NCBI GenBank assembly: GCA_027575765.1 | Contig: JANBPT010000005.1 | Coordinates: forward strand, 62,001-126,000 | DNA: 64,000 nucleotides | Source of the DNA: Tieghemiomyces parasiticus | Lineage: Eukaryota > Kickxellomycota > Dimargaritomycetes > Dimargaritales > Dimargaritaceae | Direction of reading: 5' to 3' | In this document: positions 3,301 to 24,673 of the stretch, in pieces | Position numbering within the stretch: position 1 is the first letter of the stretch | Layout of the letters: every line of letters begins with the position of its first letter | Made by a program: the position numbers and the translations under genes | The notes under the pieces: model-generated | Told to the model about the DNA's origin: nothing | Seen by the model: the letters and a program-made list of their open reading frames with translations, nothing else | The model's database searches: none

Positions 3301-5441
3301 AGGGCATCTGGGCCATGCGGGGCGTAGGCGGTTAGGAACCGATAATACAGGCCGCTGCGCAGAAACAGGGGGTAGTAATTCTCTTTCATGTACTGAAACA
3401 CATCGTACTGGGCGGAAATCACGAGTTCGAACAGGTCTTGGCTGCGCGCGGCGAGGGACTCGGTATCCGAGTCCCGGGTCACGATGGCTGGTAATGCGCT
3501 CGGCGCATCTTCCTCAGGTGTGCGATGGGATCGGTGGAACAATGCCAGTCGGGCACGGAGGTCTGCGTCAATCTCGGCAGCCAGATCAAGCTCGTCGACA
3601 GTATCAGTGGCAAAGTAAGTACGGTAGATGGCGTGAAGGACGGTGGCCAGCCCTGGGCGGTCGGTACTGTGCGGGTGGCGCTTGAGGCCCTCAACGGTTA
3701 GCCAGAACTGTAGATCGATGACCTTACCAATCAGGTCCATGTACTCCGTAAAATAAGAGAGGGCCGTGTGGTTGCTTAGGATATCATGGAAACTGAGTCG
3801 CGGGCTGGCCAGGTACGGGTGGGCGGGTCCACTGGTACCCGGAAGGGCCCGGGCGGCCGGAGAGGTCGTCGCAGGCGCACCACTCTCTAGGGTTAGAAAG
3901 TAGCTGCTGTACCTGTCCTTCTGGTACACTTCACGCCCCAGGGCCAAAATGCGCTTTTCGGCCAGTCGTTTGGCAACCACCAGCCGGTTGATGTACACGT
4001 GCAGGTCCTTGACGCGGTCGCCATGCACAATGTCGCTCGTGGCCTTACCCTCGACTAGAATGCGCTTGGTACGGATCTGGGCCACGATCTGGTTGCGAAC
4101 CTGTTTGACTTCCTCCAGGTTGCGGCAGTGTTTGATGCTTTCGATGAAGCGGTCGAAACTGGGGACGTCGCGGACCGAGGAGCGGGTGGAGAACGGTAAG
4201 GCGTGGGCAAGGGCGTGACTAGCGGCGCCCTGTAGACGGGCCGCCATGGTGGTCAGATTGCCCGGGGCAGTCTGGGAGGTGGGGCCCAGTAGGTCCACAG
4301 GCGTGGACTGCTCATTCAGGGCCCGCCGCAACTGAGCCACCATGTTTTGCTCCTCAATGGCGCGGGTCAGGAACTGGTCCACCTGGAGGTTCCAGGTGTC
4401 GGGGTCGATCAGTGCCAAACACACCGGACGCAGGAGCGCACCGGCCATCAGCTCGCGAATGGTGAGGGCCTGCAATCGGGATTCTAGCGTATTGGGCGGA
4501 CAGATCAAGGGCAGAACCCGGCTCACCAGGCGGCGTAGGTAGGCAAGGGACACGCGTGGCACCGGCCAGGTCGCTTCGCCGTCCCCTGTTATATTGGTCG
4601 CCGCAGGTGAAGGAGTCGGAGTGGTTCGAAGGGCTGGGTGCCGGTGTTTCGGATGGTAGTACTCAAAGACCAGGGCGTCCCAGGCGGCCTTCTCGTGGGG
4701 CGGGGCGAACCAACTTTCACCGGGAACCATACCCGGCCGGTCAGTGGGTCGCCTCCCGCCGGTCCCACTGCTAACAGACTCCGCAGAGTGTTGGTCTACG
4801 GACCCGGGGTCGGCGCGTAGCGACCAGGCTTTTCGCGCCCGCCGCTCGGCCAACCGGAACTGGTGGAGATGGCGTGTGACGAGCGGGATCAAGCGGGCAG
4901 CCACCAACGTAGGTAGATCGAGGCGGTCTGCCCGGCGGGCTGCCTGTCGCAGCACGGTCGTGATCTGGGCCCGTACGCTGTGCGGAAAGCGTCCGTCGGT
5001 ACTCAGAGTTTGGAACCAGCTACGTAAGAAGTCCCGGATCACATTATCTAGCAGGGCATTGATCTGTGCGTTGAGGCGGGCGGCGTCAGGCAACCCGTCG
5101 TCGTCGTCGCCGTCAACCGTCGTGCGCAGCTGGTTGGGCTCAGGGACCACCTCACGGTCGGTGCTGGGCAGGTGGGTCTCGTCTTCGTCGGCCCAGGCCG
5201 GTTCCGTATAGGTGAACTTTAGCGGTGGAAGTGGAGGATACAGCGTCGGAGAACTGGTGAACAGCCAGCGCGACCGCCGTCGCAGTTGCCGCCGGTAGAG
5301 ATAATAGGCGACTAGGAAGTTGAACAAAAGGAAAAGGACGAGAGTGCCGACGACTAGGAAGAAAGTGCGGAGAGCCAGGGCGGCGTAGGTGCTCAAGGTG
5401 GCCAAAGGGCCAACGTAGGAAACCCCGGCGGGTGCCGACAT
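354..5441 (-). CDS. MDM1: PXA-RGS-PX-Nexin_C sorting nexin (Mdm1/SNX13/SNX14/SNX25 family)
   Basis: A single open frame of 1695 residues. An N-terminal membrane segment (about residues 24-48) is followed by a PXA region (about 120-370, interrupted by a low-complexity insert). An RGS domain starts near residue 547. A long Ser/Pro-rich linker leads to a PX domain near 1210-1330 with the phosphoinositide-binding motif RRYREF (about 1239), and a Nexin_C domain lies near 1525-1665. This order defines the Mdm1/SNX13/14/25 family, whose members tether the ER to vacuole/lysosome or lipid droplets. The start is the first ATG of the frame, just before the membrane segment. The long linker, with a coiled-coil-like stretch near 1110-1170, makes the protein longer than most relatives. 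No intron is needed. The family call is firm; the exact member is not decided. Confidence 0.93.
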   Translation of the reverse strand: MSAPAGVSYVGPLATLSTYAALALRTFFLVVGTLVLFLLFNFLVAYYLYRRQLRRRSRWLFTSSPTLYPPLPPLKFTYTEPAWADEDETHLPSTDREVVPEPNQLRTTVDGDDDDGLPDAARLNAQINALLDNVIRDFLRSWFQTLSTDGRFPHSVRAQITTVLRQAARRADRLDLPTLVAARLIPLVTRHLHQFRLAERRARKAWSLRADPGSVDQHSAESVSSGTGGRRPTDRPGMVPGESWFAPPHEKAAWDALVFEYYHPKHRHPALRTTPTPSPAATNITGDGEATWPVPRVSLAYLRRLVSRVLPLICPPNTLESRLQALTIRELMAGALLRPVCLALIDPDTWNLQVDQFLTRAIEEQNMVAQLRRALNEQSTPVDLLGPTSQTAPGNLTTMAARLQGAASHALAHALPFSTRSSVRDVPSFDRFIESIKHCRNLEEVKQVRNQIVAQIRTKRILVEGKATSDIVHGDRVKDLHVYINRLVVAKRLAEKRILALGREVYQKDRYSSYFLTLESGAPATTSPAARALPGTSGPAHPYLASPRLSFHDILSNHTALSYFTEYMDLIGKVIDLQFWLTVEGLKRHPHSTDRPGLATVLHAIYRTYFATDTVDELDLAAEIDADLRARLALFHRSHRTPEEDAPSALPAIVTRDSDTESLAARSQDLFELVISAQYDVFQYMKENYYPLFLRSGLYYRFLTAYAPHGPDALPSPSLNGSVTAPITIGSVPTTPRTRPTSIRPSDATSVRSLGTHRLGRSPSISSSTMSRGLRAGSITTTRPPDLLGRLRGTVPAGDKSLASTTLSAATVSIQSSAALPSVEPELRSGSTKSATPSLVDRLMLGDRRSRPSLLGPVPPRREPSIQHTVITSPAPDSLLSPEPRQSPMSSHSRSDAEHEVPPEPIDIPEADLLPTGAVEAVEAALSSIIQSNQGQGAGAPGPSATRNSEGAEAQLDERSLADGSGSTPVTPTSGSPLHPPPPSASLLQGTYDIVSSYARWWPHAGDVESDTAKRPGLLAQILPNLGTNASQVDPETLPPPESPVAPPAATDGLPAGPCGKGEDSTSDDDLDGRSSGAPASPTADHVHYAPPGDLLLPAKVAQIAQDLDRKRQQSAIVTTLIAKADQLGKANELRILRRSQSALAREIQLLAYQKQQYERQAAENVIVPGSTRIAIPSCTRGFARARSATDGEPGGGLPCTTPETEADTDDLAVTAYTLYLIEVQQMASDGDYDTGWIVARRYREFSALHQQLRQRFPVVRTYDFPRKHHLPTLTQIWPLGPGATGGSGTRKGRSWPAHVESRREALERYLQNVTRHEEVCHSYELRRFLSQQQPELDLGTAPTARPCTASGSSPGSRGSLRTDSPMPAMTRARPRAGTTGTRHRSGSGTFKHARHRSGSTSSPRRPRRREQRVTVDPTETPLQNLAIPKKPLLLQSPSTPGRPSAPSLTFSPAPLPASVVRDPAGFLPPIQQTIADGLADILGGPFMLDLVSQQLGREVASLADSSVTLPTGSVTAPAGASATGATSFTDPLCDLVLEIFELKERSNWLRKRAITLLLRNVLGGTIERRLRDALDGVLGQGPLVNYLGILHRTFWPDNAAPFTPPAPRSDAAKFEARSTAAAKWLFFVPSLVGNMVGRRNACRGASRLFNLLQNPYLNENLVYHILDEVVLHLFPELQGLEPVTLPTNHGTQAL

Positions 5442-6601
5442 GACGGGGGCAGAAGTCGGGCGCGGTGAGACAGAGGGGGCCAGTGGGTAGGTCGAGGGCG
5501 GTATTTAGTGCGTTAACAGCGGCTGTGCGTGGCAGGCAAGGAGGCGAGTGAGCGGGGCTCGAGGTTAGGCGAATGCGGGTTGGAAAGAAGCGGTGATACT
5601 ATGAGAGGCGCAGGCCCATTAGGTGGTAGGCCAGTCCGTTGTGAAGGCAGGCAGAAAGTGGCAAAGTCTAACAGGAAGGTGGGCTGTGCCCGCGGACGCT
5701 TCGGTGACCACAACGAGAGCTGCTCGAAAGGTTGGCCGTATGTGATGCCCAGCGGGGTGACCCGGAGCGGTGGACAGTGGGCACAAGCGGGTAGTAGCAG
5801 GGGAGGGTGGAGTAGACCGCCGGCGGGGGCAGAAGGCAAAGCGCTTGTTTGTGGAATGTGGTGGTGCCGGGCACTCGGGCATTCAAAAGTCAGGCCACCC
5901 GGTGGAGATGGGGGGACGGTGGAATGTGGGGGCGAGGTAAGCTGGGCGTCAGCTGAAAGTAGCCAGGTGATAATAAGGAAGTGGAGACGGGCGAACGTGC
6001 CCACCCTCGCGGTGCGGGGTACCAGCTTGAGGCCAGCCGGCGAGCGGAGTACCAAACTGGTATGGCATGTTTGGTGCAATGCTCCCCGTCTTTCAATGTT
6101 GAGAGAGGAGAAAAAATGAGGCGGTTTTACCAACGGCGAAGCCCCTCATGGCTCCTGTCCCTCCCACAGCTGGGAAGGGAGCAATCTGACACTTGAACTA
6201 CACCACTTGAACCGGCCGGCGATCCATAGACACTAGCAGGCCGCGGGCCGTCTTTACTGTGGACAGCTTGGTGGTGATGTTTGGACGGCAGGGTGCCGAT
6301 GCGAACGGCAAAGCACGCACATTAGCCATATTGCCTGGCATATTGCAGGCTGGTCTGCGTTTTGCTTGGCCGGTATTATTGTGCCGTGGCCATACCCGTT
6401 TTGTGACTGCGGCGTTGCTCGGGGTGCAGGCACACTAGGTCCATTGATTAGGCCCACCACTCCTTTCCTAGTGCCCTGCCGTCGGCTAGTCCTTCCCATT
6501 GCGCCTATCCTGAGGGCCGTGCCCTAGTCTCAAGTTGGTGGACGAACCCTAACCCAACTCCAGCCATCCGCCTATCTTACGGTATAGTAGCTTTTGCGCT
6601 T
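5442..6601. other. Upstream region of sorting nexin gene, no gene supported
   Basis: The stretch carries open frames on both strands between 5513 and 6133, but neither resembles a known protein nor shows the C/G third-position bias of real genes here. It most likely contains the promoter and 5' UTR of the minus-strand nexin gene. From about 6200 the sequence becomes stop-rich in all frames and grades into the relic-bearing island. Confidence 0.4.
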
Positions 6602-7110
6602 ATGGACAATTATTTCCACTCGAGCCGCACCCGTTACCGTAGCCACTACGGAGCAGCTGACGGCTTGCACTACGTGGCCGAATACCTCTGGAACTGCCTA
6701 CGCTCCTAGGTCGAATCCGTCATGAACCCCTCTACGGGCGTCCCCTGCACGATTAATCTGACCGGCCGCTACGACGTGTCCAAATCCCCCCTTTGCTCTA
6801 TTTAACGCCCCAACAGCAGCAGTGGCTGGCAACAAAGAAGTCGGCTGCGCGAGGATCGTTGGCTTTGAACGATGACTGGGTCTATGCAGTGTGCAAGGTG
6901 GCTCTGGAGAGCTTCACCGCCAACCGGATGGCGCCCATCAGCAGTCTAGTTCTCAACTGAGCCTAGGTGTAGTTTACACACGGCGAGGATGGCAACGTCC
7001 TCCATAAGATAGTCCCACGATGACTGTAAGTCATTACTGAACTGGCCTGTCGTTAGCGGCCAGTTGGACAGCTACTTAGCCTGCAAGGTCCTGTTCACGC
7101 CCAGTTGCTA
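6602..7110 (+). pseudogene. Heavily decayed protein-coding relic, unknown family
   Basis: From the ATG at 6602 the frame runs about 35 codons with strong C-ending codon use before a TAG. It resumes in frame for about 32 more codons (including the text GRYDVSKSPLC) to a TAA near 6803. Coding-like text then continues in a shifted frame near 6870-6957 (for example DDWVYAVCKVALES) with further stops to about 7110. The third-position bias matches intact genes of the window and contrasts with the surrounding noise. I read this as one gene broken by several stops and at least one frameshift. I do not recognise the family. A multi-exon gene is less likely because stops fall inside the coding-like blocks without good splice sites around them. 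Confidence 0.45.
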
Positions 7111-9827
7111 AAGACGACCAGCTCCTGGTTTCAACCGCGTATGGGTGAAGAGGAGAGGCCGTTAAGAGAAGGGTAAAGATTGATGGTGGTCGTTCTCAGA
7201 CCTATATGGGATAGCTGCTTCCTTGGTTATTTTGCTTCCCACTGCCAGGGATGGAAGAAAATCCCATCGTGGCTTGTATAGAATCTGGGTGCTAGGAAGG
7301 TGAGTACAACGTGCCGTATCTCCCTACCATTTTGCTTTATCCGATCCCGGCCCAGGGGCCGCTCGTCGAGAGGTACTGGCAGGATCAGAAATGAGAGCGC
7401 GTCGGACCCCTCGACGGTCGCCCAGCGGCGAGAAGACGAATGGCTATCTACGTGGTGATTCCTAATACTGCCCCATCAAGCAAAGCGATGACAATCGCAT
7501 GAGCCCACGATAGTGCCTAGCAACGTTCGTATCTAGACCGGTCGCGATGGACTCTCCAGACGCGCCACACCAGGCGGAGGAAAGTTCAGCGTCACCCCTG
7601 GCGGGTAAAGGGGACAGGATTGAATGACGATTTGAAAATCGAAAAAGGTAAGAGGAGTGAATTGCCTGGTTGCCGCTAAAAGTTGACCTGTTATAACCTT
7701 TAGCCTGGTAACGACCCCTGGTCCCTGAAGTATATCATACAGCCGCGTCATAGCTTCCCCTTGGCGTCTACCCCTGGCACGTTGACGGCTATACCGTATG
7801 AACGGAATAAAAAACCAACTAAATATCCGTGGTGGTAGACCTGTTTGTCATTAGGTAACTAACACGGACTAGACAACCCACCCCTAACCCTCAGCTTTTG
7901 CCCTCAGCAGGGGACGGTACTAATTTGCTAACCTAATCCGTACCTCTCAGCTGACACCATGTAGAAACACAGCCGCTGGGGAAGATACAGGGGCGGGGTA
8001 CAATATTGTGTCATGTACGGTGTAAACTGTGGGTAGGCATTACTTGTCAGGCTATTAGGTACTATGAACAGCGCGTTAGTCACCCCCTGTAGACAATCAC
8101 GTACGGGATACCAGATGGGAATGTCGTCATCACGAGAAGCTGTTGTGGTAGGCAGACATCTGGCGGAGTCAACGAGCACTGCTTTGCAAAAAAGAAATTG
8201 ATTCCGCGCTTACGTGGGGGTTGGCACGATTACGTACTGTTTCTAACGACCCCCTTGAGCGTATCCGCTGAAGTTCAGAGAAAAACTTTCCGTGAGCTAA
8301 TATTATCGAGGACCCCTCCGATCAGCAGGCAGTGAGATTGCTATGGTAATATTCTACTCCACATGCCAACAGGGTTGGCGGGTTACAGTGCTTTCCCAAT
8401 GCGGCTAGGACTGGGAAACTAGGCTGGCCGTCCGTTCTCAACGCGCTCCTCTTTCAGTCCATTACTATCTGGAATCAACGTTTCTCTTCCCAATAAAAAC
8501 AACAGGCGCACACCGTACCAATTCTCTCATTAACCATGGTTCCTTGTGGCGTTGCCCCGTAAATAGGTATCAGCCATTTGGAGGAAAACTGACTAGAGCA
8601 TCGAAATATGAAACGACTGTAGCCCGGAAAAATCTATGAAATCCGTCCCAAAGGGGTACAGGCACATTCATATCCTGGCTCTGCTCTAACCCGAGCCTTA
8701 CCTCGTTACTCGCACCAGTCCTGCCAATCAATATTCATAGGGCCCACGCACCCGGTCACCCTGGATTGATCGATGTCGGCCGCCTTGCCCTCGACCCCTC
8801 CTTGCTCAGTCTAGGTAAGGTGATCGAGTTCCTGGACACGGATGAGGCTTCTATCCCCGGCCTCAGCATTACCGAAGGGGAAGGGGGTACATTGATACAC
8901 TCAGTCGACACAGCTTCATGTCAGCCAGATTATCCTGGCCTACTTCCTCCGATAACATATTGACACTTCATCTAATGATATCCACTATTTTAGCGTATTC
9001 AGAGACTGGCATGTCTAGCCAAATGAGAAACACCTTAAGTGTTAGATTAGTCTATGGCCATTGTTTGAAATATATCGCTCTTGTTGGCATGCAGGTGTTA
9101 AGATGACATGATAATCAAGCCTATCGGCTGTATAATTGCGGATCCGCTATCGTGTCGCATCAGACCACGATAAGCATCTAGAGCCGCGTGATCATATTAC
9201 GGCACGACCCGGCCTTATCTTTATACCCTCTCATCCTCCAGGCCCACGTCTTTGTATCCTGTAGGTGTAACCCCACCTCCGCCTTGTTAATAACGTTGAA
9301 TCCTGGGAGCACTTTGAATTCGTATTAGATGCCGTAATGTTAAGGGACGCAAGAAGGGCTTAGACATCTAACGACGCAGGCCCGCACGGGAAGCACCGGG
9401 ATATAGTACTGTATACCGAAACCTCGGGGTCTAGGTGTCTAAGGCGTAAGGGGGTATCGCATGGTGTCACTACAGCGGTACCAAGCTTATTTTCGTCGAG
9501 CGAGAAACGGACTGACGAACTAAGACACAATTGGGGGGTTCACCAGTTTAAGCACACCGAGCTCATATTGTATTGCTGAAACCTGGCTGTCCTACTCTTC
9601 CCAAGCCAATCCAATTCCCCATATTAGCACGCGGTTCCCAATCGAGGCGACCCACTACTCACATCCTGGTCCCAGAACTCTATACAAGGCCCTGGATATG
9701 ACCATGCAGTCCACTTCCTCATCTTTAATCCTATCCGATTATACGCTACCTCTTAGCAACGACCTTTATTGGTCATTTCCAGGTTCTACACCCACCAATT
9801 CCCCCTTTCCCGCACCACCCAGCCACC
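7111..9827. other. Gene-poor island, mostly without readable content
   Basis: Stops are frequent in all six frames. The only coding-like piece is about 8757-8900 on the plus strand, reading roughly GLIDVGRLALDPSLLSLG and onward with C-rich third positions before the bias disappears. It may be another short relic. The sequence just before 9828 (CT-rich, ending in a good context for an ATG) looks like the 5' leader of the pseudogene that follows. Confidence 0.4.
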
Positions 9828-10276
9828 ATGCGGACCACTTTCACTCTCACTGTAATCAGCATCCTGGCTCTAATCGGCACCGTTATTGCCACCCCGACCC
9901 GCCGCGGTTGCCCTGACGAGTCTGATGGAGTTGATACTGCGGGCGACAGGTTCGATGTCATTGAGGATATTTACGAGAAGATGGCCATCGCTGATGCCAT
10001 CGACGACATCTTTCCGGACATCGGCATGTTTAAGTAGACCGCTGACAAGGGAATCGGTGCCGCGGACTCCCAATCGGCTTCGAAGGGGACTTTCTCAACT
10101 CTGTCGAGTTCGAGCCCGTCAATAAGGAGGGTCCATTTGACAGCGACGAGGTTGATAAGTAGGCTGGTGAAAACTAATCGAATCTATTAGCTGATTGGTA
10201 CTCGTACCTTCTCAACTTCGGTCAAGAGCTTTCATCAGCCTTCGTTACCTTAGCTTGCCAGTCTTTCTCTGGGTAG
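9828..10276 (+). pseudogene. Broken small secreted protein gene
   Basis: The ATG at 9828 opens a clear signal peptide (MRTTFTLTVISILALIG, then TVIATPTRR, a dibasic site). An acidic mature part follows to a TAG ending at 10037. The same frame continues coding-like (TADKGIGAADSQSA) to about 10078. The continuation then lies in another frame (from about 10082, GDFLNSVEFEPVNKEG and onward) to a TAG at 10160-10162. That second frame goes on past two stops with coding-like text (ADWYSYLLNFGQELSSAF) to 10276. A premature stop plus a frameshift inside otherwise biased coding sequence indicates a pseudogene, although the first 69 codons could still yield a short secreted peptide. No family recognised. 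Confidence 0.65.
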
Positions 10277-11362
10277 GTGGTAGGAGGAGCCACACTAATT
10301 TTAATTATATTTACCAGGAATGGGAATTAAACGCCGAGTTATACCGCACTGAGCGATAACCTTCACAAGCTTTTCAGAGGCGGCATTGCATAGCTTGGAA
10401 TGATTGGATTACTCAGGCTATTAAGTACCGCAACCTGAAGCGGACTACCTTCATAGAATTCACACCATCCCACTGCGCTGCTTAGCCTAATACCTTGATA
10501 AGCCAAGGAGCTAGAAACATCAATCGGGTCAGCCTTAGGTATTAACCTTTCTACCGAATACGACAGAATAGTCCAAGCGACCAAGTCAGAGGGCGTGAGA
10601 CCAGTCCGTAATATATACAGCTTAACTTGCCAAAATTGCATCGATGCTTTCCAGGGCTGTGTCTTACTTCGGGAAAAAAACAATCATTCACCTGAGATCT
10701 GAGGGTAGAGATGAATATATTATCTTGGATCGTGACCTCTTACATCTCCTTGTCGACAATTCAACCGGGGGAAGTTAAAATCCCACTCCGGTGAAACTAT
10801 CGCGCTGTGGACATGGCGTGTCTCGCCAGCCGCTGTTTTGCGAAGAATTGTGTGATGTCCGATGTCGCTTACAACTCTGTCCAAGCACCTCAAAGGCTGT
10901 GTTGCCTTATCGGCGAAGAAAGGGGAATTCTGCGGATACTGTAGATATGTCTCCTTGGCCTTGACGAGTCTTGGATCACCCGTCTCGCCTTTGGGCTAGC
11001 AATCCCACGTATTACCCCCCCCCTGTAACCCCGAGGGACAGATACAAGCTGGACCACAATCCGCCTGGGCAATAGAAGACGACGGTGCATGAGCTCGGGG
11101 CTGGCCTTTTATATCCTAGGGGTGGGGTTAAACTTGCGGGGTAAACGTAGCCACTCTAAGCAGAGGGCAGTTCTTGGCTGCTTAGTGCGCCGTGCATGCC
11201 GTCCCGGTCTTTAGAAACGAGACTGGTAACAAGGGATCAGGCCAGTGGGAGATGGTGTACACGGCGACTTGCAGGTTTGGGTCGGTCGACCCACCATATA
11301 GAATGAGATGCCAGGAACCGACACTGGAATAACGGGCGAGGAACTGGTAAACCACGAGTAGA
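10277..11362. other. Intergenic stretch, nothing recognised
   Basis: No frame shows the codon bias of the window's genes. The 106-codon minus-strand open frame at 10363-10683 lacks that bias and I leave it out. The end of the stretch leads into a TATA-like run. Confidence 0.4.
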
Positions 11363-11372
11363 TATATATATA
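11363..11372 (+). promoter_or_regulatory. TATA-like run upstream of a secreted-protein relic
   Basis: A (TA)5 run about 50 bases before the coding-like frame at 11415. Position and pyrimidine-rich downstream sequence fit a core promoter, but the gene it would serve is broken. Confidence 0.35.
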
Positions 11373-11414
11373 CCTATCCTTTATTTCACCTTTCGCTGTA
11401 CTTCACAACTATAA

Positions 11415-11816
11415 TTGACACTTCGCCCCCACCACGGCAAGCCCAACCCCATACACCTTTGCTTCAATTTCGCCCTGTGTTTCACCATTCTCTTCGTCGC
11501 CCTCGATCTCCTGAGCCTGGCTTTCAATACCAGTTCCGCCCCGACCGGTCAACTCCACTCGGGCGAGCCCGTCCACAAATCTAAAGTCGCCTCTTTCTGG
11601 GGCCACGATAACGTCGATGAAAGCAAGTCCATCGCCCAGGAGATAGCCGAAGCCCGCGCCGAAATGCGAATGGTCATGTTCAACGAGGATATCACCGCTG
11701 TTGCCCTTTAATGAGGACCGCCTGCTAAGCGTGACTTTTGCCTGGGTGACGTCTTCGCCCGCTTCAGCCAGTTGGAAACGTTTGACCCTACCGGTGCCTT
11801 GAGCCGCGGCATCTAG
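11415..11816 (+). pseudogene. Probable decayed small secreted protein gene
   Basis: The frame contains a hydrophobic leader (CFNFALCFTILFVALDLLSLAF) followed by a polar, C-ending-codon-rich region with SFWGHDNVDESKSIAQEI. It is interrupted by adjacent in-frame TAA TGA at 11709-11714 and then continues in the same frame with coding-like text (PAKRDFCLGDVFARFSQLE) to a TAG at 11814-11816. There is no ATG in a good position; the open frame starts at a TTG, so the original start is probably lost. The leader, the KR site and the small size suggest a secreted peptide precursor that has decayed. No family recognised. Confidence 0.5.
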
Positions 11817-13454
11817 CCTTGACCCTAAAGGGTCTCAGTGGTGATGTAGCGTGCCTCTATACTGGTGGTGAGTTTTTTCTCCCATGGTTCCTCAACGGCG
11901 CGGCAACGCGGTGGAAGCATGGGGCTGACTGCTTAGGCCTTGCAATACGGCAATACCGCCCTCTTTAGAGTCGGTACGACGGTCATTTTCGATACTTAAT
12001 CTATCAGTGATGTAGGATTAAAAAAAATGCTATACGCGCACTGGTGGGCAACGTTTCAGCCATCGCTAGGAATGTTGAATTGCCATGTAAAAACTATTCC
12101 GTGATGGTAATGTCCAGCACGGTCACCACAGGAAAGGGGTAATCAGGAGTCGACGCGCCTCCGAACGGGTGACCAATATGGACGTAGGATCTCCTAAATC
12201 AGACAGCGACTTTTCTACCATAGGCGTGTTAGTAAAACCAATACCCCTGACTGTAATCCAGGCGGCTCCTGTATCGGTTGGTGCAAAAGCCCACAGGCCG
12301 ATGGTAAGTAGGGGTTGCCGCCCGCAGGAGCCGTAGGGCGTAGTAACGCGGAAATTTAGCAGCTTCTACTTCCGACATGTCGAATTCTGAAAGCTATTGC
12401 CAGTACACGACTGCCGACCGTACAAACTGGAACCTCCTCTAAAATTTTTGATCGAGGTAGTCAGCCACATCGTTTTGGCTGCCAATCCAGTCTGTAGCAT
12501 GAGATTTCAAGTGGAGTCGGTATCGTAGATAAAACTATAGTATTCCGTTTCCAGAAAGGCCTGCTGTAGCCGACATCGGAATCTCTAGCGCCCTGCTTAT
12601 GTAGATGGCCTTATTAGTGAGATTGACTGGGCCATGATATGCTGGCGAAAGCCGGACGACCCAAACTCGTATTAATGGCGACTCCGCTCGCTATCACATT
12701 TTCAGGCCAGTAAAACCTACATTGAATTATACACGGTTCACTAAATGATGTGCGCTCGACGCTGCAGGGTGCTTTACTCTGAAGCACACGACTAGGCTAT
12801 GCAAATTCGATGTGATCGACCTTACCATGCCGTCGGCCAATCGAACAGTTTAGTGTAGTTCCTGATCACTACCGCGATCTCATCCCAGGTCCTTACTTAG
12901 CCCTGAATTCCACTGATAGAAACGAACCTCCGTGGCCGTAATCAGTCAACAATTGAGAAGGGTCAGGGTTTAGCGTGCGGACTCACGAAGGGTAGGGTAG
13001 GCGACATAGAATGTATCCGCAGTAGGTGCCCCGCTGATGACTGCAACAGCAGGATCAAAGGGCGAAATGGAGCCTGCCCATTATGCCACTGCCAATTGAC
13101 GGGTCGCCGACTTAACAGCTCATTGACCAACGCGTCCGGATCTCCTCAGCCCATTAATATGACTCTGACCATCCCTTCGTATGCGCATCTGGCCGGCGGC
13201 CACCCAGATCGACTGCCATTCGACTCGTCCGTTCCATCGGACCCAGGGTTCAACAGTGCGAATTCAGGGTCCTATATCCCTTACTGGTGTCATACCGTTG
13301 GTTACGGGTTCCAATGACTGTGGTCAGTAAGAATTAGGGATTCAGTAAGAGCATGCCCTCAGGGTCCATTATCAGTAGGCCACTAAAGCGCTGAAGGATC
13401 GGCCAGTGCGTGCAGATGCGGTCTGCCAAAGGGTCTACGGTTGGATTGAGGAGC
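11817..13454. other. Gene-poor island, no gene supported
   Basis: Mostly stop-rich in all frames. The open frame at 13096-13317 (73 codons from a TTG) has some coding-like composition (SYAHLAGGHPDRLPFDSS) but no start, signal or recognisable family. It may be another relic. Confidence 0.35.
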
Positions 13455-13560
13455 CAAGACACACAGGACACGTACATGAGAACGTGGACACTTAACCCAC
13501 ACGGCGACACCACCACGCTAGAGGTAGGTTTAACGGCACCGGTATGGTCCGGAACTGAGG
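13455..13560 (+). other. Possible degenerate relic of the downstream peptide repeat
   Basis: In the frame that crosses this segment the translation contains QDTQDT, then 13 residues later TTTLEVGLTAPV. The intact gene 300 bases downstream has QDTQDTK followed by [11 protein letters not shown] in its repeat units. The six-residue match is exact and 15 of 18 bases agree, but the second block is only loosely similar. It could be a decayed partial copy of the repeat, or chance. Confidence 0.25.
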
Positions 13561-13568
13561 GTATAAAG
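13561..13568 (+). promoter_or_regulatory. TATA box of the Kex2-repeat precursor gene
   Basis: GTATAAAG, about 180 bases before the ATG at 13745, followed by a pyrimidine-rich leader. TATA boxes are seen in this window mainly before secreted-protein genes, which fits regulated expression. Inferred from position only. Confidence 0.45.
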
Positions 13569-13744
13569 AGCAGACAGGCGGACAGTGCAAGCAAAGTCGA
13601 TATCCAATTCTCCGCCTTTTCTCTTCTGCCTCACCAGCAGGATCACATATCGCCCTTCCCCTTTCACGAACCCTCATTACTAGCTATTACCTTTTCACCC
13701 TCTTTTCTAACGACCCCCTTCTTCACGAACCCAGACTTATAACG

Positions 13745-14950
13745 ATGCGTTTCACCACCACCTTCGCCCTCGCCGGCCTTCTGGCCGCTGCCGCCGTGTC
13801 GTGTTTGCCCGCCGACCTGCCCACGAACCTGACCCCGATGAGTACAGATATGTCCCCCATGGATAACTCGCTGGCTGTCAACCCCATTGACGCTGCCGAT
13901 GCCGATGCCAACGCTGATGCCGTTGCCAATGTTGACGCCGATGCTGATGCTGACGCCGATGCTGATGCTGATGCTGATGCTGACGCCGATGTTGATGCCA
14001 TGTCCGAAATGGATGCTGACGCTGACACTGATGCCGATGCTGTTGCTAACGTTGACGCCGATGCCGATGCTGACGCCGATGCTGATGCTGATGCTGATGC
14101 TGACGCTGATGTTGATGCCATGGCCGAAATGGATGCCGATGCTGACTCTGATGCCGATGCCGTTGCCAATGTTGATGCCGATGCTGATGCCGATGCCGAC
14201 GCTGATGCCGATGTCGATGACATGGCTGATCTGGCTGACCAGGACAATGAGGATGCCAATGACATGGATGCCGACAATGACAACGATGATGATTCCGCAA
14301 ACATGGATGATAATGTGGACCTGTTTGAAATGGATTCCGAGGATCAGGCTGACCAGGATGACCAGAACATGCTCGTCAAGCGTGGCAACCCGGGCATTCA
14401 GGGCACCCAGGATACCAAGGAGACCTCCCTCGTGGTCGCCGTGCCCCTTATCGCCAAATCAAAGAAGCAGGCCACCTGGCTGGAGCGTCACCGTCGACCC
14501 ATGTCTGGTGGTCGCCGCATGAAATACGGCCCTGGCAGACCCCGCCGCCACCGGTCCTCCCACCGCAGTCCCGCCCACTCCAAGTCCTACGGCCGCTACA
14601 AGCGCAGTGTCAAGGGCCCCCATGACACCCAGGACACCAAGGAGACCACTCTCGTGCTCGCCGTGCCCCTGATCTCCAAATCGAAGGAGCAGACCACCTT
14701 GTTGGGGCACAAACGCCCGGGTCATGGTGGCCGCTCCAAGAAGCACGGCCCCGCCGGCTCCAAGGCCTACGGTCGGTACAAGCGCAGTGTCAAGGGCCCC
14801 CAGGACACCCAGGACACCAAGCAGACCACTCTCGTGCTCGCCGTGCCCCTGATCTCCAAATCGAAGGAGCAGACCACCTTGCTGGAGCGCAAACGCCCGG
14901 CGCACGGTAAGCACGGTCGCCCCACCAAGTCCCGCCACGGCAAGTACTAG
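13745..14950 (+). CDS. Secreted Asp-Ala repeat pro-protein with three Kex2-delimited basic repeats
   Basis: 401 residues from an ATG followed by a clear signal peptide (about residues 1-20, [20 protein letters not shown]). Residues about 49-160 are three copies of an about 40-residue unit made largely of alternating Asp-Ala, each containing AVANVD and the first two ending in VDAM(A/S)EMD. An Asp/Asn/Met-rich region follows to residue 210. The strongly acidic half ends at LVKR (near 213). The rest is strongly basic and consists of three repeats, delimited by VKR and RYKR, each with a conserved core [19 protein letters not shown]. Each repeat also has an internal KRP or RRP, which Kex2 would cleave poorly. 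This is the build of a Kex2-processed secreted peptide precursor whose acidic pro-region neutralises the basic products. Function unknown: pheromone-like, antimicrobial and wall-associated peptides are all possible. No intron. Confidence 0.85.
13889..14225 (+). repeat. Three tandem 120-bp units coding Asp-Ala repeats
   Basis: Units start at 13889 (123 bases), 14012 (120 bases) and 14132 (about 94 bases, shortened). Each is built from GATGCT/GACGCC-type hexamers encoding Asp-Ala, with a non-repetitive landmark GTTGCCAATGTTGA. Synonymous differences between units show the amino-acid pattern is kept while bases drift. The array is prone to slippage, so length may vary between strains. Confidence 0.9.
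14384..14947 (+). repeat. Three tandem repeats encoding the basic Kex2-delimited peptides
   Basis: Repeat 1 is 14384-14605 (74 codons), repeat 2 is 14606-14785 (60 codons) and repeat 3 is 14786-14947 (54 codons). Repeats 2 and 3 are nearly identical at DNA level over about 100 bases, which points to a recent duplication. Repeat 1 is more diverged and has a longer Arg/His/Ser-rich tail. Confidence 0.9.
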
Positions 14951-15333
14951 AGGCTTATTTACCTGGCCTTTCCGTCCACTACCGCACCCTCCATTGGGTG
15001 TCCTGTATATCTGATACCCTCCAATCAGTCACGATTGCTCCTTTTGACGCGTGAATCACAGTGTGTTGTTTGTCAACAGTCCACTACATACTTTGTGGAT
15101 CTACTCTCATTTCTATTTTCTACCTCCAGTTTTTTGAATCTACCCTTTGTTCCCCCTTTGTAATGGCTACCAAACATCTAGAATAAAAATGTTTATCGAA
15201 TGACGGGTAAGACGGTGGTAAAGGTAGGAAATTTATAATATATATTAAAGATTAGACCGCATCATAAGCGACGTGTATATTTTTTTGTTACTGTGGTGCA
15301 ACTTGCTATGATGTTGGGCAGTTAAAATGTTCT
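14951..15333. other. 3' flanks between convergent genes
   Basis: AT-rich stretch between the stop of the repeat precursor (plus) and the stop of the Mpo1-like gene (minus). It has several AATAAA-like and T-rich strings that fit polyadenylation of both transcripts. No gene seen. Confidence 0.5.
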
Positions 15334-15933
15334 TTACTGCTTAGCAGACTTGGTAGGACTGCGGGCGGCTGCCTGGAACTGCTGCAGCCTAGACTCAATT
15401 AGGGCCTCGACTTCAGCTTGGAACCGAGGACGGTAACCCAGCATGAAGAGGATCTCAATAAAAACGAAGAGCGGAGCCATCAGCAAGGCCTGGCTCAGAT
15501 TGTCGGTCAGGGCTGGGGCGCGCTTCTCCCAGACAGCGTGGCTATAGAACTGGGCCATCCAGCTAACGATGTGTACACCGGCCCCGATGGCCAGGGCGTG
15601 CGGATGGGTGGCTGCGAGTGAGGTAGACGTGTAGTAGAAGGTCAAGAGGAAGGGCAAATACAGGGTGGCGGCTACGAAGTCAAGCACCAGGTAGTACAAG
15701 ACGTACAGAACCAACATGAAAAAGGGAAGGTGCGGCTCGAAGCCCAGGTGGCGCAGCGTCTGTGCTAGGCAACCGTCCATGGACACCCCGGGCAGCGGGC
15801 CGAGCAGGGACGCCATGACCCAGAAGCTCCACAGAATGGCCGGCACAAAGACAATATGGACCCACATGTTGCGGTGGTCGTGGTGGTAGGAGCCGTAAAA
15901 GGCAAACTGTTCCTTGAGATTGAAGATGCTCAT
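15334..15933 (-). CDS. MPO1: Mpo1-like (DUF962) ER 2-hydroxy fatty acid dioxygenase
   Basis: 199 residues from the ATG at 15933. The frame is open further upstream but that part is proline-rich and not family-like. The N-terminus MSIFNLKEQFAFYGSYHHDH-RN and the downstream W-H-I-x-F-V-P pattern match the DUF962/Mpo1 family. Yeast Mpo1 is an Fe(II)-dependent dioxygenase in the ER that degrades 2-hydroxy fatty acids from phytosphingosine. Conserved histidines are visible in the YHHDHRNMWVH region, and HAVWEKRAPAL near the C-terminus is also typical. Four hydrophobic segments are present. Slightly longer than yeast Mpo1 (174 residues) because of a C-terminal tail. Family call secure; the activity is inferred from yeast. 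Confidence 0.9.
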   Translation of the reverse strand: MSIFNLKEQFAFYGSYHHDHRNMWVHIVFVPAILWSFWVMASLLGPLPGVSMDGCLAQTLRHLGFEPHLPFFMLVLYVLYYLVLDFVAATLYLPFLLTFYYTSTSLAATHPHALAIGAGVHIVSWMAQFYSHAVWEKRAPALTDNLSQALLMAPLFVFIEILFMLGYRPRFQAEVEALIESRLQQFQAAARSPTKSAKQ

Positions 15934-17701
15934 GTCGTCAGCGAGGGGAGGGGGCGGTGGTATGGGTATGTGCGGGTATGGAATGGGCCAACGACGGGGC
16001 TGACAAGCGAAGGACACGGCCAAAGCGGGTATAAGAAAGGCGGGATCGGCAGCAGCCTTGAGTGGGGCGGCAATGCGAGGTCAGGGCACGAGAAATGGTT
16101 CGGGCGACAGAAGCTTGATGAGGAGAGAGGTGGGAGGGAGTTAGGTGTTTGAAGCGGGTGAGGTGCGGAGGGAACGGGGAGCTAGAGGGGGGAAAACAAG
16201 GCGGGAGTTCAGCCCTTAAATGACGGGTGACTGCGAAGCCACTTTACCAACCGCGGCTGGGTTGGTCAGAGTTTTCGGGCGGAGGAGACGCGGACAAATG
16301 AAAGCACGCAAGTTAATTGTTACCGTGCCACAGGATTATTACGCACCAACCGCCTTTATAACAGAGCCTGTCCGGCAGCCATTGACTCACCCCGCCCACC
16401 CTTCGGTCGCCACAGGACACATCAGCCCATAGGATCGACCTGGGCCACCCAAGAACGCGTATTTTCTAGCAGAATGGGATGCCCTGTGCGGCGCCGTGAG
16501 AGAATAGCTATCGCACCGATATGCACGGCAAACCTCAGCATGCCGCCCCTGGGGCTTCCATTCGACCGGCTGCTCGATATGCGTGACCCAAAGGCCAAAT
16601 GTACTGGTGGACGAGGGAGTATCGATCTTCATCCATACCCATCGTTTCCTAGGGGGTAAGCGCCTGCCCATAGTGACGCCCGTGGACGACGTACGAGTAA
16701 CTAAACTTGGCTGGCCAGAGAGGGGCCTTCATTCGTCGGCTTCTGAATGGGCAAGCTCCCCGCCCGCTGTCACCTCCGTTCAATAAACACAACTCGACAC
16801 TTAGTGGTTAACTCATCATGGAAGCCTGGACCGGTCGGGCAGGAGGCTGGACATAAAAGAACGAGCTGTTGCTCGGCCCTGGCGTTGTGGTCGTCTAGTG
16901 AAGCACCTCAGCTGCTGGAGGTGGGTGCTTATATTTGCATATCTAGAGTCACTGATTCGTATCCCATTTCTGTATCCATGACATAAGCAATACGTAGTGG
17001 CCAGAGGATAACCTGGTACCTAGCAGCTCCACACCCCACCTACGAATGGCCATGTGCGCCCAGTTAGTGCGGCCGATGGATAGAACCATCTGGGGATCCG
17101 CAGGACCTCGATTGTTTCTGGGATCGTACTGTATGGTACTAGAACAACGGTGTCTACGTGGCCCACGTCTGATATAGACTGAATCGGACAGCGCCACCGT
17201 TCCCCTTCCCTACAGTGACACCTAGATCACGTACCCTGTCAGCCTCCCCGACATGGGTTGCTTTAATAATAATATTCTGTAAATCCCTGGTCATTGTGAG
17301 TAAACCCGAGGCAGGTGAACAAGCCGACCGGCGGGAAGACCGCTGAGCGTAAAGCAGACGCACTTCCCCCAAGTCATCGGCCGTACCTCCTGGGGCTATC
17401 GCCGGCCGTCCAGTGGCCGCCCCCCTAACGGACGAGCTGGCCCAAACACTACAGCTTGGCAAATGGCAGTCCCAACTAACTTGTCCCATCTGAACCAAAT
17501 ACTCGCTTGGCGGGCCCTGGGGCTATGGACACCCGCAGTTGGAGCATGCGGCGCATCCTGTCCCAGCGTCAACTTTCTGGCCTTGGAAATTGACTTTTGT
17601 AACGCAAACCTATGTTAACCTACCGACCACATTCACTTGACTTCGAAGCTCACTTGTACACCTTCCGATCAGCCAAGTACCGTAACTAGTCCAATCCCTC
17701 C
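15934..17701. other. Intergenic region, divergent promoters
   Basis: Lies between the starts of the minus-strand Mpo1-like gene and the plus-strand cyclo-ligase gene and should hold both promoters. Several short open frames occur on both strands, none with coding bias or a recognisable product. Confidence 0.45.
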
Positions 17702-19081
17702 ATGGCCGCCACTCCCGCCGCCAAGGCTCAGCTGCGTCAACGGCTGCGGCCGTTACTGGCTGCCCTTCCTGCCGCCACCGTCGAGACCCAGTCGTCGCTG
17801 GTCACTCAAACGGTACTCGGTTTAGAACAGTACCGGCGCGCCACCAATGTGTGCATCTACCTTCATATGGGCGGCGAGGTCATGACCCATCGGCTCGTCG
17901 AGGCCGTGTTTCGTGACGGTAAGGTATACCCGCTGCCGGGGAGAATACGTGACGGCCGGAGTTATGATACTAGCGACCAGGGTGCCACCGATAGTAATGA
18001 CATTTCCCCTTTGTACGATTGTACTACCCTTTCCCGCACCTTGACTGGATGTAGGTAAAAGCTGCTTTGTACCACGTTGCACAAGGGCTGATATGACCAT
18101 GGTGCAACTGGACGACTTGGCTGACTACCGCAGCCTACCGCGAAACAAGTGGGGTATCCCAGAGCCTCCGATGACCCCAGTACGCACGAACGGTGAGTAT
18201 CCAGATACTGGAGCAGCTAATCGACTGCCCGGGATATTCATCTAGCCAAGATTCCCCGGCTAGCCACCAAAAATCCAGGCTGCTGACATTACTGTATTTA
18301 TATCGTATTCTATTTCTCCAGTATTCGAAGCCGGCGGCCCCGACCTAATTCTCCTTCCAGGTAAGTCCACCTGTACTGGGTTTTCTCAACGGGATCTACC
18401 CCCAAGAGATTTAGGAAGGTTTATGCCACAACGGTGTTCGGTTACCTGATCTTAGTATGCAGTGACCCTACCCCGAGCACCCTTGCTCACCAGCGGCTCA
18501 TTAATTGCCATTTTATGTGGGCCCCCTTGCCACCGCTATACACTATCCTCCTTCTATAGGACTGGCTTTCGATCGCCAGCGGAATCGACTGGGTCATGGC
18601 AAAGGGTAAGTTCCAATACTATACTACTCATGGGAAGGCCCACATCTACCCGACCATCCACTCCTATTAGCTGTCTGTTAACAGTTTAAGACCCCCTATA
18701 CCCACCTGGACCATCACGTTAGCTACTACGACAAGTTCATTAAACATTGTCGCCAGTACACGTCGGACACTGGCACCACTATGCCTGCCCTTGGTAAGTG
18801 ACCAAACCCAAGTCCGAAACACCACGGTGACTACATTCACCCTATTTCCTTAAAGAGCAACTAAGCTGCTGTTGATTAACCCCCTCCCCCTTTGTATGGA
18901 TGACTGGCATTGTCCATTCCCCTCCCCAGTCGCCCTGGCCCTCACTCAGCAAATTCTAGACGAGGACTTGCCCCACGACGCTCTGGACGAACTGCCAGAC
19001 CTGGTGGTTCACCCCGAAGGCGCTTATGGCAAGCCCATAGCTTGTGTTAAACAGCCGGAGTCTGAAGGCCTGCAAAGTTGA
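17702..19081 (+). CDS. FAU1: 5-formyltetrahydrofolate cyclo-ligase
   Basis: Six exons inferred: 17702-17918, 18055-18192, 18322-18360, 18560-18605, 18723-18793, 18930-19081, giving 220 residues (human MTHFS has 203). All introns have GT...AG ends and phases that restore family motifs. Exon 1 carries CIYLHMGGEVMTHRLVE. The first junction gives FRDGKSCFVPR, then DMTMVQLDDL and WGIPEPP. Later exons give GGPDLILLPGLAFD, NRLGHGKG and YYD, the ATP/folate-binding signature. The enzyme converts 5-formyl-THF to 5,10-methenyl-THF using ATP. The 39- and 46-base exons make gene prediction error-prone here; an automated call may stop in intron 1 at 18058. Confidence in the family is high, in every splice site moderate to high. 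Confidence 0.93.
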
Positions 19082-19645
19082 GCAGCTTACTCGATCGATG
19101 TGGGTTATTGACGGCCATCATCCTAGAAAGCTGCAAGAATAGTTTAAAAATAATAATAAGTAAATGGAAACGAGTAATCGGGGTCAACCTAAGCACGTCG
19201 GTTTACTGGTAGAGAACAATAGATTATCATCCATAACCCTTCACTATAGCTGGCTGGCGGCTATAGAGTGGCTCTGTCTACATTTTTTCAGTAATACCAG
19301 CATAATCATGACAGCACAGGCTGGAACTAGCCGAGGGTTGGGCCAACCATGTGGCACCAGAGTTCTCGCCAAACCTGACCTTGCCTGCTCTTTCCCGCTG
19401 CTTCACGTGCTAATGGTGGCAGCGAACCCCTCTTCTCACCCTCCTGCTGCTCCGAGCATTTCCCACATGCTCGCAACCCTTAGACAGCTCCGGACACTGT
19501 CGGTCTGTTATCAGCGTTCACCCTTTCCTCCTCTCGCACCGCCATCCTGGCTTTTGCCCCCTCGGCCGCATTTACTCAACGACGCTGTACCTACTATCTG
19601 CACTATTCATTTCCGCCGACTGTCAACGCTCATTCCAACCCCACC
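19082..19645. other. Intergenic, PEX7 promoter region
   Basis: Between the cyclo-ligase stop and the PEX7 start. The 194-codon open frame at 19164-19748 overlaps PEX7 exon 1 in another frame and has no coding bias, so I treat it as a shadow. Pyrimidine-rich leader before 19646. Confidence 0.45.
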
Positions 19646-20935
19646 ATGCGAACCGTACGTACGACAGGCTACAATGGCTACTCGGTCAAATTCAGTCCCT
19701 TCTTTGAACATGTCGTGGCTTGCGCCGGGGCTGCTAACTATGGCCTAGTCGGCAATGGCCGTCTCAGCATCGCCAACGATACCCCGACTGGGCTCCAGCT
19801 GGACAAGGCGTAAGTTGCCTGAACGTCACGGTCAGAACCGGATCCTAGGACGTTTCCTTCGTCGGCTAGTCAGTCTGGGGCCCAGGTCTCGCCCCGCCCC
19901 GCCCCGTTAGTCCGGCGAGCCAAGCCACCCGTGTCATACCCAACAACCTACCTTCCAACTGACTAGTCGTCTGCTTTGTTGACTGCGCTGCATTTCATAT
20001 CCCCCTAGCTATGACACCCAGGACGGCACGTTCGACTGCAGTTGGAACGAGCTCAACGAAAACCAGATTGCCAGCTGTGGGGGTGACGGCTCGGTCAAGC
20101 TATGGGACTTAACCATCCCCCACCAACCCATCCGGAAGTGGCAGGAGCACCGTCGCGAAGTGTTTTCCATTGAGTGGAATTACACCAAGAAGGACACCTT
20201 TTTGACTAGTTCCTGGGACTTTACCATCAAGTTGGTAAGTACTGTGGTGATCTTTACGGCCAAGCTCACCTCCGCCGGTTAAATCAGTGACGGCCCAAAG
20301 TTACCCACGCCGCTTATATACTGACTCAAGCGCCATCGGTCATTGCTGTCCTTTCCTCTTTGGCCACCTTCCCACTTTAGTGGCACCCAGGCCAGCCAGC
20401 CTCCCTCCGAACATGGGCTGAACACAGCCAGTGTGTCTATTCCGTGTCCTGGTGCCCGCGCCAACCGGACGCATTCCTATCGGCCTCCGGGGACGGTACC
20501 GTGAAACTATGGGATGTCAAACAGCCTCGGTCGGTTCAGAGCGTTTCGGCGCACGCCCATGAGGTCCTGAGCGTCGACTGGAGCAAGTACCGGGAACACG
20601 TGTTCGCCACGGGGTCGGCAGATAAAAGCATTAAGGTGTGGGACGCCCGGCATACCCGGCACGAGGTGGAGACCCTCCTTGGCCACCAGTACGCCGTGCG
20701 CCGGGTGCGGTTTTCACCGCATCACGACGCCGTCCTGGCCAGCGCGTCCTACGACATGACCTGTCGCGTCTGGAATATCGACGCGCCCATGGGCCAGCCG
20801 CAGCGCGAACTGCTCGACTACCATACCGAGTTTGTGTTTGGTGTCGATTTCAACCTCTATGTGCCCGGCCAGCTGGCCACCTGCGCCTGGGACGAGCAAC
20901 TCGCCGTGGTAACGGTGCCGGGTCTGGTCTCCTAG
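19646..20935 (+). CDS. PEX7: Peroxisomal PTS2 receptor Pex7 (WD40)
   Basis: Three exons inferred: 19646-19809, 20009-20234, 20381-20935, giving 314 residues (human PEX7 has 323). The N-terminus RTTGYNGYSVKFSPFFE and the ANYGLVGNGRL pattern are Pex7-specific. They are followed by WD repeats with SCGGDGSVKLWD, SSWDFTIKLWHP, SASGDGTVKLWD, TGSADKSIKVWD and SASYDMTCRVWN, and the typical C-terminal HHTEFVFG-like motif (here YHTEFVFGVDF) and CAWDE. Pex7 binds PTS2 signals of matrix proteins and delivers them to the peroxisome with a co-receptor. Intron 1 is 199 bases, intron 2 is 146. Both boundaries restore the WD reading frame. Secure call. Confidence 0.95.
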
Positions 20936-24034: not shown

Positions 24035-24673
24035 ATGGTTTCCCTCCGCCAGTTTGCCACCCTGACCGTGGTCACGATCCTGGCTGCAGCATCGGCGATC
24101 GCCCACCCAGTCCTGTTGGCCACTCGCGGCGAGAGCAACCTGAACATGCACAAGATGCTCGATTTGATCAACCATGAGCGGATGCAGTATGGCGTCCCGG
24201 CCGTGTCCTACGAACCTCGTCTGACCCAGGACGCCAACCACCACTCCGGCTACCAGTCCCGTATGGGCACCATGACTCACAACGATAGCAACGGCAATAC
24301 CCTGTCCCGCCTGGTGGAAGCCGGTATCGATGCCGTGGCCTGCGGCGAAAACGTGGCCTATAACCAGAATGACGAGGACGAGGTCATGACGGCCTGGATG
24401 AATTCCCCTGGCCACCGTGAAAACATCCTGAACCCGGATTACACTCACGTCGGCGTGTCCCACATCAACGGATACTGGACTCAGGTCTTTGCTACGCTGA
24501 AGGGCGGCTCCAAGGGCAGCAGCTCATACTCTCCCGGGGGGTCTACCTACACATCCGAGGAGGACATGGGCTCACCTAAGCCTTTCCTAGGTCTACCTCT
24601 CACCAATGGCCTCTGGTCCACCGTTAACAATAACTACCGCCGCTCCCCCGCGGAACTGCAGCATCGCTTCTAG
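24035..24673 (+). CDS. Secreted CAP/PR-1 (SCP) domain protein
   Basis: 212 residues with a signal peptide (MVSLRQFATLTVVTILAAAS, cleavage near 23). The CAP domain spans about 38-158: NHERMQYGVPAVSYE-like helix 1, the MTHNDSNG histidine region, ACGENVAYNQ, and the signatures WMNSPGHRENILNPDY and YWTQVFA. CAP proteins of fungi (Pry/PR-1) are secreted and several bind sterols or fatty acids. The pair of His and Glu residues of the CAP cavity (H in MTHND, E in CGEN, H in GHREN) is present. Only one cysteine is seen, so the usual disulphides of Pry proteins seem absent. A Ser/Gly-rich tail of about 50 residues follows the domain. No GPI signal obvious. Confidence 0.92.
   Translation: MVSLRQFATLTVVTILAAASAIAHPVLLATRGESNLNMHKMLDLINHERMQYGVPAVSYEPRLTQDANHHSGYQSRMGTMTHNDSNGNTLSRLVEAGIDAVACGENVAYNQNDEDEVMTAWMNSPGHRENILNPDYTHVGVSHINGYWTQVFATLKGGSKGSSSYSPGGSTYTSEEDMGSPKPFLGLPLTNGLWSTVNNNYRRSPAELQHRF

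Follow-up and report, generated by a model that had tools for sequence, protein, structure and literature searches.

The tandem-repeat gene described here, from the fungus Tieghemiomyces parasiticus, raises the question of whether its product is a secreted precursor that is cut into several related peptides and, if so, at what these peptides are directed. The gene lies in a stretch of 64,000 nucleotides (contig JANBPT010000005.1, positions 62,001 to 126,000, forward strand; hereafter the window), to which the window coordinates below refer. On the basis of the comparisons that follow, the probable answer is that the product belongs to the Kex2-processed repeat proteins (KEPs) and is a secreted precursor of several peptides, with an outward-directed role of the peptides as the highest-ranked function.

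Organization of the precursor gene

The precursor is encoded by one intact ATG reading frame of 401 codons and a stop codon on the forward strand of the window; its parts are listed in Table 1. A preliminary description of this locus had read it as a signal peptide, an acidic half of Asp-Ala repeats and three basic repeats bounded by VKR and RYKR sites, and these elements were recovered, the signal peptide as a leader-like start: after MR the protein has a hydrophobic stretch reaching to about residue 19-20 (judged by eye), the Asp-Ala array was located by TRF with periods of 6, 18 and 120, and one LVKR and two RYKR sites delimit the basic part. The predicted products, which had been expected to measure 50-70 residues, are indeed three related units, but their sizes range from 54 to 74 aa. 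A long Ser-Ala-rich frame on the opposite strand (13723-14304) is the mere complement of the Asp-Ala array. Leader-bearing proteins are also encoded elsewhere in the window, namely a CAP-domain protein at 24035-24673 on the forward strand (PF00188, E 1.3e-19) and, at 57305-58123 on the reverse strand, a protein with dibasic sites near its start and a weak match to DPBB_1 (E 0.0024, under the cut-off).

Table 1. Features of the precursor gene and its surroundings (window coordinates)
Feature	Position	Strand	Basis or remark
TATA-like TATAAAG 5' of the precursor frame	13562..13568	+	seen directly in the sequence
Precursor reading frame, single exon, 401 aa and stop	13745..14950	+	frame also intact in the second haplotype (C101)
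Leader-like start, MR and hydrophobic stretch, cleavage expected near residue 19-20	13745..13804	+	by eye
Acidic pro-region up to LVKR, net -69 including leader	13805..14383	+	charge count
Asp-Ala hexanucleotide array (GAY GCY), higher-order period of 120 bases	13894..14213	+	TRF
First proposed Kex2 site LVKR/GN, P4 Leu, residues 210-213 (KR 212-213)	14372..14383	+	site comparison; PMC8528282
Unit 1, 74 aa, net +16, long basic tail, end YGRYKR	14384..14605	+	unit alignment
Proposed Kex2 site RYKR/SV after unit 1, KR at residues 286-287	14594..14605	+	site comparison
Unit 2, 60 aa, net +9, end YGRYKR	14606..14785	+	unit alignment
Proposed Kex2 site RYKR/SV after unit 2, KR at residues 346-347	14774..14785	+	site comparison
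Unit 3, 54 aa, net +8, without terminal KR, stop after GKY	14786..14947	+	unit alignment
AATAAA 3' of the precursor frame	15182..15187	+	seen directly in the sequence

The conserved hydrophobic core that had been described for the repeats is present in all three units, as one 14-residue sequence in units 2 and 3 and as a 14-residue variant of it in unit 1. In every unit in the window K.Q.T.L and a basic tail come after the hydrophobic block AVPLI, and an alignment of 11 units of the precursor family retains P.I...K.Q.T.L....P as invariant positions. The window has 52 ATG frames of 100 aa and above, and three or more mutually similar fragments delimited by dibasic sites occur in the precursor only. 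After shuffling, such fragments were found in 1 of 52 frames when all dibasics were considered and in none of 52 when only KR was, and 300 shuffled versions of the basic half never gave three similar KR fragments, as opposed to four in the real sequence.

By the published definition, and as far as its sequence shows, leader prediction excepted, the precursor fits the KEP class. Similar fragments of at least 8 aa, none longer than 100 aa, between KR, KK, RK or RR sites number three when the protein is cut at all dibasics and four when it is cut at KR (at least three are required), the units account for 188 of 401 residues (at least 15% of the protein is required), and a kexin, which the KEP mechanism needs, is encoded in the genome; the counts come from our own script, which uses BLOSUM62 and omits the published 40-residue seed step (definitions in PMC7329392 and PMC6339444).

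A paralogue, presumed alleles and the extent of the family

A search of the T. parasiticus genome (46.5 Mb, 1363 contigs) with the precursor returned 17 matches at E up to 10: one was the window gene itself, two belonged to a copy on contig C101, three to contig C688 and two to contig C1098. The nine matches elsewhere (E 4.2e-6 or weaker) covered the acidic half in seven cases and the basic tail of unit 1 in two. None of ten loci inspected, those of these nine matches and one more (L002), has a frame of at least 90 aa bearing an Asp-Ala run by the pattern used.

The frame on C101 is intact and encodes 411 aa. C101 aligns end to end with window positions 5149-19700 at 91-92% identity over 14.8 kb, bar about 190 bases, and we read it as the other haplotype of the window locus; because it aligns in this way, we judge a segmental duplication less likely than an allele. 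The gene on C688 is a paralogue: its 290-aa product, which is the annotated public protein IWQ60_006471 of T. parasiticus, consists of a leader, a short acidic stretch, an LTKR site and four units, and is 39% identical to the window precursor over the basic half (E 2.9e-8). C688 and C1098 match at 90% identity along 4.65 kb, and a protein of 236 aa with three units, IWQ60_002140, is read as the other allele of the paralogue; it differs from the C1098 reading by two residues near the end of that contig. The record of IWQ60_002140 lies on a contig of 82,163 bases, whereas C1098, at 73,209 bases, breaks off within the gene (L022, 7007-7210). A decayed third member of the family follows the C688 gene at a distance of about 3 kb downstream, in both haplotypes; one of its units is readable, and its matched frame contains stops (L021, about 8515-8685, forward; L022, about 4060-3894, reverse). 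From the identities of 91-92% and 90% the assembly seems to comprise two haplotypes that have diverged by about 8-10%, which accords with the statement that a related Dimargaris may be nonhaploid (PMC10386755).

When the protein collection was queried with the family at E up to 1, only two T. parasiticus proteins were returned among the best 7997 candidates scored by shared words; no member was returned from Dispira, whose proteins the collection contains and which has orthologues in it of the Mpo1-like gene neighbouring the precursor (closest record IWQ60_010805). Residues 205-401 alone, scored against 2109 candidates, gave no hit at E up to 10; this search was of short reach, as it missed the known paralogue too. 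Neither the window precursor nor the C101 protein was returned by the collection, so that the public annotation may lack the window gene and unannotated relatives elsewhere are possible.

The preliminary description had stated that no family of this make-up was known, which holds for the sequence in the libraries searched but not for the kind. In Pfam the window protein matched CRIC_ras_sig alone (0.006, under the cut-off), which we take as chance, and the paralogue matched no family. In NCBIfam the acidic array matched seven families, among them Ser-Asp adhesins, TolA and EntC, all far under their cut-offs, and the paralogue matched one (E 0.024, likewise far under the cut-off). A profile search of the PDB with the units gave no hit at E up to 1, Rfam gave nothing at gathering scores in the window, and such a precursor is not named in the titles and abstract openings of the literature surveyed. 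As a kind, however, KEPs are published (PMC7329392). Thus the kind is already known, and the family is new within the searches made.

Cleavage sites and processing

The proposal that Kex2 releases the peptides gains strength from several observations: the plan of the precursor is kept at the second locus, the dibasic sites that bound units differ from those inside them, the terminal units stop just short of where KR would stand, and the genome encodes a kexin. Release of the peptides by Kex2 is thus well supported as far as sequence comparison can take it. The whole genome contains one P-domain match, located in a kexin-like protein with S8 and P domains that matches kexin in the PDB at E 6.6e-158. 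Serine carboxypeptidases (S10), candidates for a Kex1-like enzyme, are represented by 10 matches on 8 contigs.

At the RYKR sites P4 is Arg and not an aliphatic residue, and Arg in this position suits furin-like enzymes. Proline at P1', for its part, blocks Kex2. All 13 unit-bounding dibasic sites of the four precursors (two loci, two alleles each) have G, S or D as the next residue, versus 2 of the 18 other KR or RR sites; in the remaining 16 the next residue is P, M, H, R or K (Fisher p 5e-7). With a single allele taken for each locus the figures are 7 of 7 versus 1 of 9 (p 0.0014). Both p-values overstate the contrast, since neither alleles nor repeats are independent of one another. For Kex2 substrates a preference for acidic or small residues at P1' is reported (PMC2515848); the counting of G and S as small is our extension, and the residues listed there, D, E, A, V and L, alone give 6 of 13 versus 0 of 18. 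The pro-region sites LVKR, LTKR and LAKR all have Leu at P4, where Kex2 is described as preferring Leu or aliphatic residues (PMC8528282). Additional RR sites inside unit 1 are potentially cleavable.

In each of the four precursors the last unit is without KR and ends in K-Y followed by the stop codon. Inner units end in R-Y-KR in seven of nine cases and in HHKR in two, namely GHHKR in place of RYKR at the end of the first unit of the paralogue and of its presumed allele. The last unit thus stops at K-Y where the inner units mostly continue to R-Y-KR, so that its end is of the kind that Kex1-like trimming would expose. The pattern YG[R/S]YK[R/S] is encoded seven times in the genome, each time within the precursor family, and the reversed control pattern four times.

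From this conserved anatomy we infer that the peptides are cut, trimmed and secreted. The leader would route the precursor into the secretory pathway, and the endogenous kexin would cut it in the late Golgi, after LVKR and after both RYKR sites. A Kex1-like carboxypeptidase would then trim K-R from units 1 and 2, so that all products would end in a basic residue and Tyr (GRY, GRY and GKY). The mature products would be three related peptides, linear, cationic and probably disordered, with about 72, 58 and 54 residues. In line with this, an AlphaFold prediction for unit 3 with the 11-row unit alignment gave a mean pLDDT of 58.9, no secondary structure and no stable fold.

The preliminary description had called the precursor charge-balanced and had pointed out that acidic pro-regions often neutralize basic peptides until cleavage. 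The charges do not balance: leader and acidic part carry -69 and the three units together +33, which leaves -36 for the whole precursor. Nor is neutralization a conserved principle, since in the paralogue leader and acidic stretch comprise 55 residues with a net charge of -7, as opposed to +42 in the units. Because the paralogue manages with this ratio and the length of the acidic part differs between the haplotypes (213 versus 223 residues up to LVKR, 401 versus 411 aa in total), the acidic half is better regarded as a removable spacer or carrier of drifting length. Acid-base pairing is a trait of one locus and not a defining mechanism.

Divergence between haplotypes

The haplotypes differ by four synonymous and no nonsynonymous changes in the first 64 codons, by 24 nonsynonymous and 16 synonymous changes in the 188 codons of the three units (omega 0.48; Fisher p 0.035 for synonymous versus nonsynonymous change; omega 0.84, 0.65 and 0.22 in units 1, 2 and 3), and by nine nonsynonymous and 14 synonymous changes in the 198 codons of the Mpo1-like neighbour (omega 0.18). 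The dN of the units, 0.059, exceeds that of the first 64 codons (0; p 0.001) and of the neighbour (0.020; p 0.004). Nonsynonymous change in the units is nevertheless not in excess of synonymous change: omega is below 1 and positive selection was not seen. In the array of the acidic half, which is difficult to align, dN is 0.067, and in the part preceding LVKR it is 0.070. The acidic half thus changes as fast as the units, and the rapid change is no peculiarity of the peptides.

Relation to known repeat precursors

With the KEPs (Le Marquer 2019, PMC6339444; Umemura 2020, PMC7329392) the precursor shares a leader-like start, judged by eye, and at least three clustered similar units bounded by dibasic sites; it differs from them in its Asp-Ala polymer pro-region, in that no relative was returned outside T. 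parasiticus, and in units that exceed the 9-24 aa class given as the commonest in most Dikarya (PMC6339444). KEPs are listed for all 16 Zoopagomycota strains surveyed, with 185 in total or 11.56 per strain (PMC7329392), and PMC9769878 calls their functions largely unknown. Rep1 of Ustilago maydis is cut by Kex2 into repeats, which measure 35-53 aa and are called amphipathic (PMC4617103); Rep1 has twelve units instead of three to four, and the units of T. parasiticus are strongly basic. Dikaritin RiPPs of the ustiloxin type also derive from repeats cut by Kex2, and their cores are short and cyclised, unlike the long linear units predicted here. A search for UstYa (DUF3328) in the genome gave no match, with an equally silent control.

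Possible functions of the peptides

Our best guess from the sequences is that the peptides are secreted cations whose target is either other fungi or the surface of the hypha; we rank an outward role first, a surface role like that of Rep1 second and a pheromone role low. Within the favoured reading, outward-directed peptides that bind other fungi and harm or reprogramme them, in mycoparasitism or competition, are a tentative proposal, though a better one than any of the alternatives below. It takes first place because the units are basic (+8 to +16), the order is mycoparasitic (Dimargaritales are described as haustorial parasites mostly of Mucoromycota; PMC10386755) and the knockouts of six KEPs in Coprinopsis are reported without a phenotype in axenic culture (PMC9769878). 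The higher dN of the units relative to the first 64 codons and the neighbour, a unit number that varies between the presumed alleles of the paralogue, and the failure of Dispira to return a family member point in the same direction. On the other hand, the units are only weakly amphipathic: in every third 11-residue stretch of three units the helical hydrophobic moment is low (0.05-0.43), which disfavours a membrane-active amphipathic helix. An omega below 1 and an acidic half that changes as fast as the units also speak against this role, and the latter led us to rate it slightly lower than at first.

That the units instead assemble on the hyphal wall through their hydrophobic block, as surface peptides, is less probable and we would give it rather low odds. 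The plan and the sizes resemble those of Rep1, whose Kex2-released peptides are reported to form amyloid-like fibrils (PMC4617103), and AVPLI recurs in each unit of the window; however, the units are strongly basic and hydrophilic outside this block, the block itself contains Pro, and the structure prediction for unit 3 is empty.

An intact structural or metal-binding polyampholyte, in which acidic and basic halves stay together and the dibasic sites are incidental, appears improbable. The long acidic half is kept in both haplotypes and its array has changed mainly synonymously (dS 0.59 versus dN 0.067, with the alignment difficulty mentioned), as such a protein would have it, but the paralogue has retained KR-delimited units with only a short acidic stretch, and both the confinement of YGRYKR-type sites to the family and the P1' pattern argue for cleavage.

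That the units serve as an intraspecific signal or pheromone, passed from cell to cell, is more doubtful still, and a signalling role finds no support here. Ascomycete alpha-factor precursors follow the same general plan, with tandem units parted by KR and a last unit that stops where the others meet KR. KEPs occur in early-diverging fungi, where their roles are given as unknown and pheromones as largely unknown (PMC6339444). We nevertheless rank this role low because units of 54-74 aa far exceed the 9-24 aa of alpha-type pheromones (PMC6339444), starts of the Ste13 type (XA/XP), the spacer of alpha-factor precursors, follow none of the 13 bounding sites, and the units are less conserved than the first 64 codons, which include the leader. 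Ste2 and Ste3 were unmatched in the genome, where the controls were equally silent, so that this is not evidence of absence.

We would attach very little probability to the notion that the gene is a mycoparasite-specific effector cassette in which one precursor yields a polyanion, the Asp-Ala half with -69, together with three polycations, which after cutting by Kex2 form a charge-assembled deposit for peptide delivery or as glue where hypha and host meet; if true, one fungal gene would encode both partners of a secreted polyelectrolyte pair. A spurious frame produced by tandem repeats, which the low-complexity array and the absence of the protein from the results of the collection search might suggest, is highly improbable, given a frame that is intact in two haplotypes, the exclusively synonymous change in its first 64 codons (p 0.004) and a paralogue that is an annotated protein.

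Implications

KEPs are reported as numerous in early-diverging fungi (PMC7329392), and the family described here offers two loci, two haplotypes and clear predicted peptide ends. In the search made, its distribution is restricted to a single species within a mycoparasitic order. Judged by its sequences, the family appears to add a new, fast-changing member to a class of peptide precursors that is widespread in fungi.
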